A stretch of DNA of 37,463 nt from Erysipelotrichaceae bacterium (lineage in GTDB: Bacteria > Bacillota_I > Bacilli_A > Erysipelotrichales > Erysipelotrichaceae), in contig WSYG01000014.1 of assembly GCA_009773735.1 (NCBI GenBank), positions 1-37,463 of the forward strand, in the 5' to 3' direction. The notes beneath the pieces are model-generated. The model saw only the letters and a list, made by a program, of their open reading frames with translations, was not told where the DNA came from and did no database searches. A program made the translations under genes and the position numbers. Of this stretch, positions 2 to 4,802 are shown piece after piece. Within the stretch, counting starts at the first letter, position 1. Each line of letters opens with the position of its first letter.

Positions 2-1780
2 GCTTTGATGATTTTCAGCATGGGGGCTTTAGAAAGTGGTTATGGACGCAGTACTTATGCCCAAAATCCTGCAAATTTTAACGGTTTGGTAGTTAAAAGT
101 ACGACAACCTTTGAAGTTCTCCCGTATACGGTTGAACAATATTGTTTAATATACCAAAGCGGTAAATATGCTGATGAGAATAATATCATCCATTACTGTA
201 ATGGTCGATACAACTTATTTGGTTGGGGTGCGGTTGATAGTAATCCTGATAATGCGGTAGCCTTTGTTTCAATACTGTCATGTATTAATCAACATATGGG
301 GCTCAACTTAAGAAGATCCTATATGAGTTATACTGGTTCTGTTTTTTACGCTAGTAATATTGGTACAAAAGGAGCAGGGTTAAATACAAAATATGCATCC
401 GATCCTTGGTGGAGCTTAGGCATTTCTGCGATTGCTTATAGAATTGACAGATACCTTGGTTTTAAAGATCTAAACTCTTATATGTTAGGTATACTTAGTT
501 CATCAGCATCGCGCACTGTTTATAAGGATCCACAATTGACAAATATCCTTTATACACTTCCTACTCGAGCAACCAACTACCCTTTTATCATCCTTGAAGG
601 AATGATGGTCAACGATAAATTGGTTTATAAAATTCAAACTACAAACCCACTTAATGAAGATGGTTCAATTAATAATAACCAAGATCCTATTTTAGTTCCT
701 TATAATTTTACAAGATCGATTGCTTATATCAACGCTGATCAAATTTCTGATTACATTTCAAAATTTGTAACAGGTGTCGTCCATCAAGGTCTATACAATA
801 AAGATCGCCAGATATTCTTCACAAACGGTACAGCCACACTAAATGGTTTGCCAATTCTTTCTGGAGCAACCGTAACAGCTGATGGTGTTTACGATGTTGT
901 TGCAACAAGTGTTACGGGAATTGTTCAAACATTGCGTTTCACTATAGATAAGACAGCCCCAATCATAAGCATTCAAGATTATCCTACTATAATGACCAAT
1001 CAAAATGTCATAGTAACTGCTACTACAAATGAAGGATCACTAGGTGCAGCATCTTACACCTTTACTGAAAACGGTACTTATGTATTTAGAGCCGTTGATG
1101 AAGCCGGGAATATTACGGAAAAATCAGTTACAATTTCTCATATAGATAAGATACCACCAGTCATAACAATAGCTCCTTTTGATTCAACAACGACCACTCC
1201 TAGTGACATAATAGTCACAGCTTCAACAGATGAAGGAACTCTAAATGTCACTTCTTACACATTTACCTATAACAGTTCATTTACTTTCATAGCAACTGAT
1301 GCTGTAGGAAATGTCTCTACTAAGGAAGTGACCGTTTCAAATATTGTGAAGAATATTACCTTGAGTTTTGATACTACTTTTGTTGGCGGAACTTTAGGTG
1401 CTACTCTAAATGAAGTCCCTATCGTTTCAGGAATCACTGTTAATTCGACTGATCTAATAGATTTCACTGTGACAGTAACCCCAAAATACAGAGTATATCG
1501 TTGGGGATTCAATGATGATTACACCATAACTTCTGCAACAACAGTGCGTTTAAATTACTATGCGTCTAGTACCATTGTAAAAGTGGAATTCTATTTGATT
1601 GCAGACTTAAATGATGACAATAAAGTATCTACGACCGATTTGGTGAAACTAAGAAGATTCATCTCTGGATTAGAAACCATGAATGAAAAAGCCGCACTGG
1701 CTGCCGATGTCAATGGCGACGGCAAGATCAGTACGACCGATTTGGTTAAGATTAGAAGAATGTTGGCTGGATTAGAATAA
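2..1780 (+). CDS. Glucosaminidase with Ig-like repeats and C-terminal dockerin (5' partial)
   Basis: This is the 3' part of a secreted peptidoglycan hydrolase. The reading frame is open to the left edge, so the signal peptide and the start lie outside; the TTG at 5 is internal. The first ~160 visible residues match an endo-beta-N-acetylglucosaminidase (GH73-like) fold: the motif ALESGYG holds the likely catalytic Glu, followed by NLFGWGAVDSNP, a GTKGAGLNTKYASDPWW stretch and AYRIDRYLG. Two Ig-like repeats of about 70 residues follow (about 313-380 and 381-450, each starting near DK.PP/AP and ending in a DA.GN turn), then a beta-rich segment to about 530. The end is a type I dockerin with two calcium-loop repeats, DLNDDNKVSTTDLVKLRR and DVNGDGKISTTDLVKIRR. 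It should act outside the cell on wall glycan; a dockerin normally binds a cohesin, none of which is visible here. The gene converges on rseP, with overlapping stop codons. Confidence 0.85.
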   Translation, partial: ALMIFSMGALESGYGRSTYAQNPANFNGLVVKSTTTFEVLPYTVEQYCLIYQSGKYADENNIIHYCNGRYNLFGWGAVDSNPDNAVAFVSILSCINQHMGLNLRRSYMSYTGSVFYASNIGTKGAGLNTKYASDPWWSLGISAIAYRIDRYLGFKDLNSYMLGILSSSASRTVYKDPQLTNILYTLPTRATNYPFIILEGMMVNDKLVYKIQTTNPLNEDGSINNNQDPILVPYNFTRSIAYINADQISDYISKFVTGVVHQGLYNKDRQIFFTNGTATLNGLPILSGATVTADGVYDVVATSVTGIVQTLRFTIDKTAPIISIQDYPTIMTNQNVIVTATTNEGSLGAASYTFTENGTYVFRAVDEAGNITEKSVTISHIDKIPPVITIAPFDSTTTTPSDIIVTASTDEGTLNVTSYTFTYNSSFTFIATDAVGNVSTKEVTVSNIVKNITLSFDTTFVGGTLGATLNEVPIVSGITVNSTDLIDFTVTVTPKYRVYRWGFNDDYTITSATTVRLNYYASSTIVKVEFYLIADLNDDNKVSTTDLVKLRRFISGLETMNEKAALAADVNGDGKISTTDLVKIRRMLAGLE

Positions 1781-2812
1781 CTTTGACAAGTCTTGCCAAG
1801 TAGCCAAGACCATCAACATAATCAGTAGTGCCGCACTAAAATACATCAAACCATATTCCACTCGTTTATTGAGTGGTTTTCTTATGATCATTTCAATTCC
1901 GATGATAAATACTCTGCCTCCATCTAAGATAGGTAACGGCAATAAATTAAATACTCCAACATTTAATGATAGTATCGCTGTAAGATAAATCAAGTTTAAT
2001 AGTCCATAACTTGCTTGAGCCTGTGTGATCTCTATGATCCCTAGAGGACCGCTGACGGACTGTAAACCAACTCCTGTCAATAATCTACCGATCAATAAGA
2101 ACATGCTGTAGATCGTCCCAATCATGGTCGAGAATGCATATCCAATGCCTTCGAGTGGACTAATGTTTACTTTCTCTGCGGGAGGTAACATAACCCCTAA
2201 GAAATAACGTTCAGTTTCAGCCATATAGATTGGAGTCACCGAGATTTCAATTTCTTGTGAATCTCTTAAAAGCGTAAACTTAATCTCATTGTGATAAAGC
2301 TGAGTATATGTAATAACATCATCAAAGTTCTTGGGAACGACAGAAGTCCCATCAGTAAATGTAAGTTTCAAAATCTTATCGTTCATTTGTAGACCAGCTG
2401 CTTCAGCAGGTGAATTTTCAACGATACCAGCTACTATGGCTTTTGGTGACTCAATGACATAACCAAGTGACCAATTAATCCCAACAAACAATATAAAAGC
2501 CAAAACGAAATTCATGAATATGCCTGACAACATGATGATCATGCGTTTATATTTAGCGATGCCCAGTAAAGTTCTTTCAACAGGCACATCTGCTTCAACA
2601 GATTCTTCCCCTGCCATAGCCACAAAACCACCAAAAGGAAACATCCTTAGATTGTAGGTTGTTTCTTTTCCTTTAAAGCCCCATAACTTGGGACCCATAC
2701 CTAATGAGAATTCTTTACAATAAACTTTAAAAAACTTAGCACTGACCAAATGGCCAATTTCATGAATCGTAATAATGATGCTCAATATGATCAACGTATA
2801 TAGAATTGACAT
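1772..2812 (-). CDS. rseP: Site-2 zinc metalloprotease RseP (RIP protease)
   Basis: This is an intramembrane zinc protease of the site-2 family that cleaves anti-sigma factors and signal-peptide remnants within the membrane. At 346 aa it is a compact family member. HEIGH, the metal-binding HExxH motif, is at residues 17-21 in the first membrane segment; a single PDZ domain lies around 125-205; the second metal site is in the NLLPLPILDGG motif near residue 300, followed by hydrophobic segments. The ATG at 2812 follows AGGGAG at a normal distance. In Bacillus the usual order is uppS-cdsA-dxr-rseP; dxr is absent here, and 91 bases with hairpins separate cdsA and rseP. The stop codon overlaps the stop of the convergent dockerin gene. 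Confidence 0.95.
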   Translation of the reverse strand: MSILYTLIILSIIITIHEIGHLVSAKFFKVYCKEFSLGMGPKLWGFKGKETTYNLRMFPFGGFVAMAGEESVEADVPVERTLLGIAKYKRMIIMLSGIFMNFVLAFILFVGINWSLGYVIESPKAIVAGIVENSPAEAAGLQMNDKILKLTFTDGTSVVPKNFDDVITYTQLYHNEIKFTLLRDSQEIEISVTPIYMAETERYFLGVMLPPAEKVNISPLEGIGYAFSTMIGTIYSMFLLIGRLLTGVGLQSVSGPLGIIEITQAQASYGLLNLIYLTAILSLNVGVFNLLPLPILDGGRVFIIGIEMIIRKPLNKRVEYGLMYFSAALLIMLMVLATWQDLSKLF

Positions 2813-2903: not shown

Positions 2904-3620
2904 TTATAAAGTAAGAAGAGATATAAATATGTAAAAGAATAAAAGATTAAATACTAAACTATCTATACGATCCAATACTCCACCATGAGCTGGAAAAATA
3001 CTCCCAAAATCTTTAATTTTGAAATGACGTTTAATGGCACTAAAAGCTAAATCACCAATTTGACCTATGATAGGAAATACAACCGCCATAACAACCAATA
3101 TCCAGAAATTGAAGCCCTTAACCATAAAATACGCGAAAATAAAGCCTGATATTGATCCGATTAACCAACCTCCGATTGAACCTTCTACCGTTTTCTTAGG
3201 TGATATTCTTTCGTTGAGTTTTGTTTTACCAAAATAGAAACCACTGAAATAAGCTCCAGTATCTGTTGTATATGTAGATATCAATAGAAAAATCATCATA
3301 TTGACACCAAAGTCATCAAATACTATAAATATTGACTTTAACGTGCCAGTAAACATCAGTATCATTGTCAAAATGTAACCTAGATCTGATGGAGTAAACC
3401 AAGGGTTTAAAATAGAAATCAAATAGAAAAACATAATCAAACCCAGTAAACATACCAATAGGAATTGATCTGATACTCTTGATAAACCCAATACCACAAA
3501 GATAAGTAGCACAAACAGCAGTTTTGGCCATTCTTTTTCTTTTATGGCATACGTTTCATAAACCCCTACGAGTACAAATGAATAAATGATGATATCTCTA
3601 ATTAATCCACCTGAAATAAA
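2904..3620 (-). CDS. cdsA: Phosphatidate cytidylyltransferase, N-terminus missing
   Basis: CdsA makes CDP-diacylglycerol from phosphatidate and CTP, the entry step for all phospholipids, in the membrane. The C-terminal family signature is intact: SAIKRHFKIKDFGSIFPAHGG followed by VLDRIDS near the end, preceded by STYTTDTGAYFSG and SPKKTVEG. The frame is open from 3620 (FISGGLIRDIII) and encodes 238 residues, whereas the family is usually near 260-270. No ATG lies in frame at a sensible place; the first usable start is a GTG at 3512, well inside the first membrane segments. The missing part is the first ~25 residues and the whole ribosome binding site. The upstream neighbour uppS loses its end at the same point, which suggests one deletion or an assembly join rather than two separate decays. 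Confidence 0.8.
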   Translation of the reverse strand, partial: FISGGLIRDIIIYSFVLVGVYETYAIKEKEWPKLLFVLLIFVVLGLSRVSDQFLLVCLLGLIMFFYLISILNPWFTPSDLGYILTMILMFTGTLKSIFIVFDDFGVNMMIFLLISTYTTDTGAYFSGFYFGKTKLNERISPKKTVEGSIGGWLIGSISGFIFAYFMVKGFNFWILVVMAVVFPIIGQIGDLAFSAIKRHFKIKDFGSIFPAHGGVLDRIDSLVFNLLFFYIFISLLTL

Positions 3621-4221
3621 TCAATTCAGCATAAGCCAATTGCCACATCAAGAAATTAGACAGTCGTTGTTCTCCAGAGGTGCGAATGCATAAATCAACC
3701 GCAGGATAATCTTTGGTCATCAAGAACTGCTCAAAATTCGTTTCATTCAATTCTTCAGTCATTTTTCCAGAAACCATAGCCAAATGATATTTTTTAGCCG
3801 CTTCAACAATTTCAGTTCTACTACCATAGTTCATCGCAAATACAAGAACCATTCCAGTATTATGCGAAGTATCTTTGATGGCATTTAACAAAACTCGCTT
3901 GGTGTTCTCAGGAAAAGGTGTTAAATCACCTATTGATTCGATCCTAATGTTCTTTTCCAATAATTCCTTTAGATATTTACTAAAAAACATCGATGGTAAT
4001 TGCATGAGATAATCTACTTCTTGAATTGGTCTTTTCCAATTCTCTGTAGAGAAAGCATACAAAGTCAATACCTCTATGTTTTCGTCATTGGCTGTAATAG
4101 CAATTTCTCTTACTTTTTCTACACCATGAAAATGACCGAAGGTCCGCTCCTTGTCTTGTTTTTTAGCCCAACGGCCATTACCATCCATGATGATGGCGAC
4201 GTGCTTAAGTTTTTCGGTCAT
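3598..4221 (-). CDS. uppS: Undecaprenyl diphosphate synthase, C-terminus replaced
   Basis: UppS is a cis-prenyltransferase that extends farnesyl diphosphate with isopentenyl diphosphate to give the C55 carrier lipid for wall synthesis. IIMDGNGRWAKK (catalytic Asp13), FSTENWKRP and the IPP-binding RTSGEQRLSNF (Arg180, Arg186) are present, as is Glu199 of AYAEL, equivalent to E. coli Glu213. After Leu200 the homology stops and the frame runs through seven unrelated residues (IYFRWIN) to TAG. Family members have about 40 more residues (the YFTD.LWPDF...RRFGG region), so the protein is short at 207 aa. The start ATG at 4221 follows AAGGAG. The lost end coincides with the lost beginning of cdsA. 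Confidence 0.85.
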   Translation of the reverse strand: MTEKLKHVAIIMDGNGRWAKKQDKERTFGHFHGVEKVREIAITANDENIEVLTLYAFSTENWKRPIQEVDYLMQLPSMFFSKYLKELLEKNIRIESIGDLTPFPENTKRVLLNAIKDTSHNTGMVLVFAMNYGSRTEIVEAAKKYHLAMVSGKMTEELNETNFEQFLMTKDYPAVDLCIRTSGEQRLSNFLMWQLAYAELIYFRWIN

Positions 4222-4239: not shown

Positions 4240-4258
4240 AGCTCACTTGAAGTGAGCT
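4240..4258 (-). terminator. Hairpin between frr and uppS, possible attenuator
   Basis: AGCTCACT and AGTGAGCT form a perfect 8-bp stem around a 3-base loop, directly after the frr stop. On the minus strand it is followed by TTCTTTCTT and then the uppS ribosome binding site. The T-run is interrupted by C, so it may be a partial terminator that lowers downstream expression, or an RNA-processing or stability hairpin. Confidence 0.5.
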
Positions 4259-4802
4259 ATACTGTCATGATGTCTTTTTCTTTGTCTTTGACGATGGTTT
4301 CAATCTTCTTTATATGTTCATCTGTTAATTTCTGAATCTTTTCTAAAGCATCTTTTTCACGATCTTCTGTTAATGTATCATCTTTTTTGATGGCATCATT
4401 AACATCGCGTCGAACATTACGAATAGAGACTTTGGCTTCTTCCGCATGCTTTTCAACGACTTTGGTGATTTCCTTGCGGGTTTGTTCTGTTAATGCCGGA
4501 ACATTGATTCTTACGACAGTACCATCATTCATAGGATTCATTCCCAAATTAGCAGCTTGGATCGCATGTTCGATCAATTTTAAAAGACTTGTGTCATAAG
4601 GTTTGATGACCAGTTGTCTACCTTCAACGACTTGAATGCTACCAACTTGGCTTAATGGGGTTGCTGAGCCATAATAATCAACATGAATGTCTTCAAGTTG
4701 TTTAGGATTAGCTCTTCCGGTACGTACCGTACCTAAATGGTGCTCAAATTTATCGATCACCTTTTTCATTTCAACGGTTGCTTTGTCTAAATGTTGTTTC
4801 AT
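4257..4802 (-). CDS. frr: Ribosome recycling factor
   Basis: RRF, together with EF-G, splits post-termination ribosomes so that the subunits can be reused. The 181-aa length is typical (about 185). It shows the usual layout: an N-terminal helix, the segment [31 protein letters not shown] marking the hinge with the beta-domain, the [20 protein letters not shown] region, and a long C-terminal charged helix pair. The ATG at 4802 overlaps the pyrH TGA as ATGA, and its AAGGAGG lies inside the end of pyrH, so the two are translationally coupled. It is part of the rpsB-tsf-pyrH-frr operon. Confidence 0.97.

Follow-up and report, generated by a model that had tools for sequence, protein, structure and literature searches.

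The closest described counterpart of the locus studied here is the Bacillota-type uppS-cdsA gene pair, which encodes UppS (PF01255/TIGR00055) and CdsA (PF01148). In Bacillus subtilis, uppS is reported to be essential in walled cells and dispensable in L-forms, and cdsA is reported to be essential, with a role in phospholipid synthesis (PMC3989771). Work on Clostridioides difficile treats uppS1 and cdsA as essential, with the caveat for uppS1 of polarity onto the essential cdsA (PMC12548448). Depletion of UppS in Streptococcus pneumoniae is described as reducing growth and blocking division (PMC9363119). The RxG motif of cis-prenyltransferases is reported to help form the active site, in the human enzyme at both substrate sites (PMC7573591).

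We analyzed a window of 37,463 nucleotides that is the whole of one contig (G000:C76) in a draft Erysipelotrichaceae assembly of 82 contigs and 1,943,005 bases (1.94 Mb), with a completeness of 99.27% and a contamination of 0.38%. The gene order on its minus strand is tsf-pyrH-frr-uppS-cdsA-rseP, with frr, pyrH, and tsf as presumptive names. The order and strand of the uppS-cdsA pair, with rseP next, are those of G001 and G002, the closest relatives of the window at about 81% protein identity. The loci of these two genomes (L004 and L005, respectively) and that of G006 (L006) served for comparison. Upstream of uppS, the presumed frr (4257..4802, minus strand) is intact relative to G001, and downstream of cdsA the adjoining rseP (1772..2812, minus strand) is intact as well. 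rseP directly follows cdsA in the window (with 2812-2904 between them) and in G001, G002, and G006; in 4 of the 7 other members of the genus (G003, G004, G005, and G007) cdsA is followed by a frame that we take to be dxr-like from its N-terminal motif. Neither DXR (PF02670) nor HMG-CoA synthase (PF01154) had a match in the whole assembly, yet IspG is present, so the reductoisomerase step may be carried out by another enzyme. The product of positions 5-1780 (plus strand) has a weak match of glucosaminidase type, just under the Pfam cut-off, and a type I dockerin domain at its end; this frame begins at the very edge of the contig, and part of it may be missing.

Alignment with L004, L005, and L006 revealed that 151 bp present in both L004 and L005 are absent from the window at the uppS-cdsA junction, with homology to the relatives continuous on both flanks of the gap. 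In a BLAST comparison with L004, one segment ends at window position 3618 and the other starts at 3620, corresponding to L004 positions 2104 and 2253. The join (3618..3620, minus strand) contains no N, and its two edges have the trinucleotide TTT (gene strand) in common. In L004, uppS comprises 233 codons, and its stop codon TGA shares bases with the start of cdsA in the sequence ATGA. Relative to this arrangement, the window lacks the overlap itself, the 31 to 32 C-terminal residues of UppS, and 18 residues of CdsA, the L004 CdsA being matched from F19. An earlier note on this DNA had described a deletion-like join breaking both genes, and the direct comparison with L004 and L005 bears this out; its estimates of about 200 bp, about 40 UppS residues, and about 25 CdsA residues missing were all too large.

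The uppS remnant (3598..4221, minus strand) is a frame of 207 codons that is UppS-like to about residue 202, after which a few residues foreign to the family lead to the stop. The protein follows its family to Leu200 (AYAEL), as the same note had read it, and then continues as IYFRWIN before the stop, although two further conservative positions are still paired in the alignment. The family match of this stub is not a chance one (E = 2.6e-67). It scores 227.4 against PF01255 (cut-off 27), covering positions 1-191 of the 219 in the profile, and 229.9 against TIGR00055 (cut-off 109.55). Against the equivalog NF011405, it reaches 276.4, under the cut-off of 304, whereas the relative's protein from L004 passes at 312.7. 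The lost tail holds F, W-P, and R-x-R-R-x-G positions that are invariant in 19 of 19 aligned relatives and absent from the window protein, and an R-x-R-R-F-G-G motif is among the lost C-terminal residues.

The cdsA remnant (2904..3620, minus strand) is an open frame without a start codon and without the first 18 residues. Its CdsA homology (FISGGLIRD) opens in the +1 frame with no start codon, again as first described. It does so directly after an in-frame TGA, and the first ATG, GTG, or TTG in the frame is a GTG at 3512. The match to the family is strong (E = 6.4e-49; 167.4 bits against a PF01148 cut-off of 24) and spans profile positions 22-263 of 264, the C-terminal part included; what the window frame lacks is the complete N terminus and its start codon. 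In structure searches, solved UppS and CdsA chains could be aligned to the relative's proteins from end to end. From these comparisons of sequence we infer that neither the shortened UppS nor the start-less CdsA would function normally. That the two genes form a functional fusion, or one joint frame through recoding, was considered and rejected, since the UppS C terminus is absent in every frame.

The remnants carry little sign of age. Measured against G001, dN/dS is 0.064 for the uppS remnant and 0.080 for the cdsA remnant, within the range of 0.016 to 0.151 obtained for 21 other genes of the window. As dS approaches saturation in many cases, the ratios are rough and the low dN is the firmer point. 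Stretches of 200 and 238 codons without a stop, as in the two frames, have a chance of about 1e-7 and 6e-9, respectively, by base composition alone, figures to be read with the understanding that coding frames are open from the outset. An old loss with relaxed selection was rejected, as both remnants fall within the range of their neighbors. Frames that stay open and are as conserved as those around them indicate that the loss is either very recent or not real, and it is probably not old.

A survey of 60 genomes, including the source genome, placed the break in context. uppS was matched in 57 of the 59 other genomes, and in 56 of those 57 it ran uninterrupted in a single frame for 231 codons or more, the exception being G027, in which it is split over two contigs, with the second piece running from base 4 of its contig. 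All seven other genomes of the genus have a full-length uppS, and none of the seven has a second one. In the same-genus draft of G004 (L008, contig G004:C36), an NN lies within cdsA and about 62 bp of the relatives' sequence are missing, apparently an under-sized assembly gap; this shows only that drafts from the genus can suffer short-gap losses.

Three origins had been offered for the join at the outset: an assembly error, second copies of the genes, or a subpopulation variant. Second copies were not found in the assembly, where PF01255 and PF01148 each match solely at this locus across all 82 contigs, while the other two origins both stand. A stray copy of the missing piece was likewise not found in the whole assembly; the relative's junction DNA matched the two flanks only, and the rest was at chance level (E of 0.1 or worse). 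Intact uppS and cdsA genes could in principle lie elsewhere in the genome, outside what is admittedly an 82-contig draft, leaving this locus a harmless broken copy. Given the completeness of 99.27%, the lack of a second uppS in any other genus member (0/7), and the lack of relaxed selection on the remnants, we consider such a spare pair quite improbable.

The remaining gene content bears on whether a cell could live with the locus as deposited. MurG and a MraY signature are present in the assembly, as is MurC, with a TIGR01082 score of 310.6 that is under the cut-off of 335.1, and a cell with these proteins should need undecaprenyl phosphate and with it UppS. Were the deletion fixed, the organism would lack intact UppS and CdsA, or the shortened forms would have to work, whether translated from the GTG at 3512 through reinitiation or from a non-standard start. 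The open remnant frames fit this picture, and B. subtilis L-forms are reported to manage without UppS (PMC3989771). However, the invariant UppS positions are gone, and the lipid II genes represented by MurC, the MraY signature, and MurG would be kept without either enzyme. Nor was a CdsA substitute found: the alternative CDP-DAG synthase Tam41 (PF09139) had no match in the genome, with the control likewise silent in 14 of 14 genomes. A fixed, viable genotype is for these reasons very unlikely. A shade less credible still is a bacterium with lipid II genes and neither UppS nor CdsA complete, which would make undecaprenyl diphosphate and CDP-diacylglycerol with shortened or unrecognized enzymes.

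Repeat-mediated misassembly was rejected, as the L004 sequences up to 25 bp from either edge share no exact word longer than 6 bases. Among distinct 151-bp deletions simulated along L004, 1.7% share at least three edge bases, and the three-base overlap was itself judged on the sequence of relatives and not on the undeleted sequence of the strain. An overlap of this kind is as in illegitimate recombination, and together with the undecayed remnants, which would make the event recent, it would suit a real deletion that was carried by part of the sequenced population or arose in culture, was not viable alone for long, and entered the consensus. Cells without CdsA should not grow, however, so that one would expect such a variant to be scarce and to lose out in the consensus; the overlap, moreover, rests on relatives' sequence. 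A minority variant of this type is unlikely on balance, yet it ranks next after an artefact. We also sought a second strain or near relative by searching with the locus, and the 59 loci found were at 41 to 52% identity, none of them near.

To place the join among other differences, we counted deletions in 383 kb sampled from the assembly, together with the window; 116 kb of this sequence could be aligned to the sample from G001. Gaps of at least 25 bp within BLAST segments were counted, as were neighboring segments less than 600 bases apart in the window and less than 1,200 bases apart in G001, with segments under 80 bp left out. No gap of at least 25 bp lay inside a segment, and seven segment pairs were found. 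Six of the seven had unaligned bases on both sides, as divergent or replaced stretches, and the join alone was clean, making it the only clean deletion of at least 25 bp in the 116 kb.

We conclude that the 151-bp loss is probably an artefact of assembly or consensus. Assembly errors are reported to account for many of the apparent pseudogenes in public assemblies (PMC11017572). For an artefact speak the presence of the missing segment in both nearest relatives, the remnants without trace of decay, the loss of invariant UppS positions while users of undecaprenyl phosphate are kept, and the standing of the join as the sole clean deletion in 116 kb. Against it, neither an N nor a long repeat marks the join, which thus does not fit the common collapse of a k-mer-length repeat; elsewhere the sampled assembly looks clean, and no leftover fragment carries the missing segment. 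A genuine small deletion between short microhomologies would, moreover, look identical. Under the artefact reading, the deposited contig would have lost the 3' end of uppS together with the ATGA overlap and the 5' end of cdsA, leaving each gene without a part that it needs, while the living population would keep the segment intact. Pieces or reads may have been joined on a very short overlap at a poorly covered spot, or a chimeric molecule may have become the consensus.

The distinction matters for how the assembly is used. A real and fixed join would mean that this lineage can do without two enzymes regarded as indispensable. An artefact would be of consequence for the record only, in that the assembly wrongly implies the loss of uppS and cdsA and would mislead surveys of pathways and essential genes. 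Most likely, the join reflects a mistake in assembly or else a rare variant and not new biology. Compared with the Bacillota-type pair, the window lacks 151 bp, UppS after about residue 202, and CdsA residues 1-18, and the parts that it retains show about 81% protein identity to those of G001. For artefactual pseudogenes, the background given in PMC11017572 names short indels and wrong base calls, whereas here 151 bp are missing and the sample has no excess of other breaks; the locus nonetheless resembles them in having frames that are broken in one draft, intact in relatives, and free of decay.
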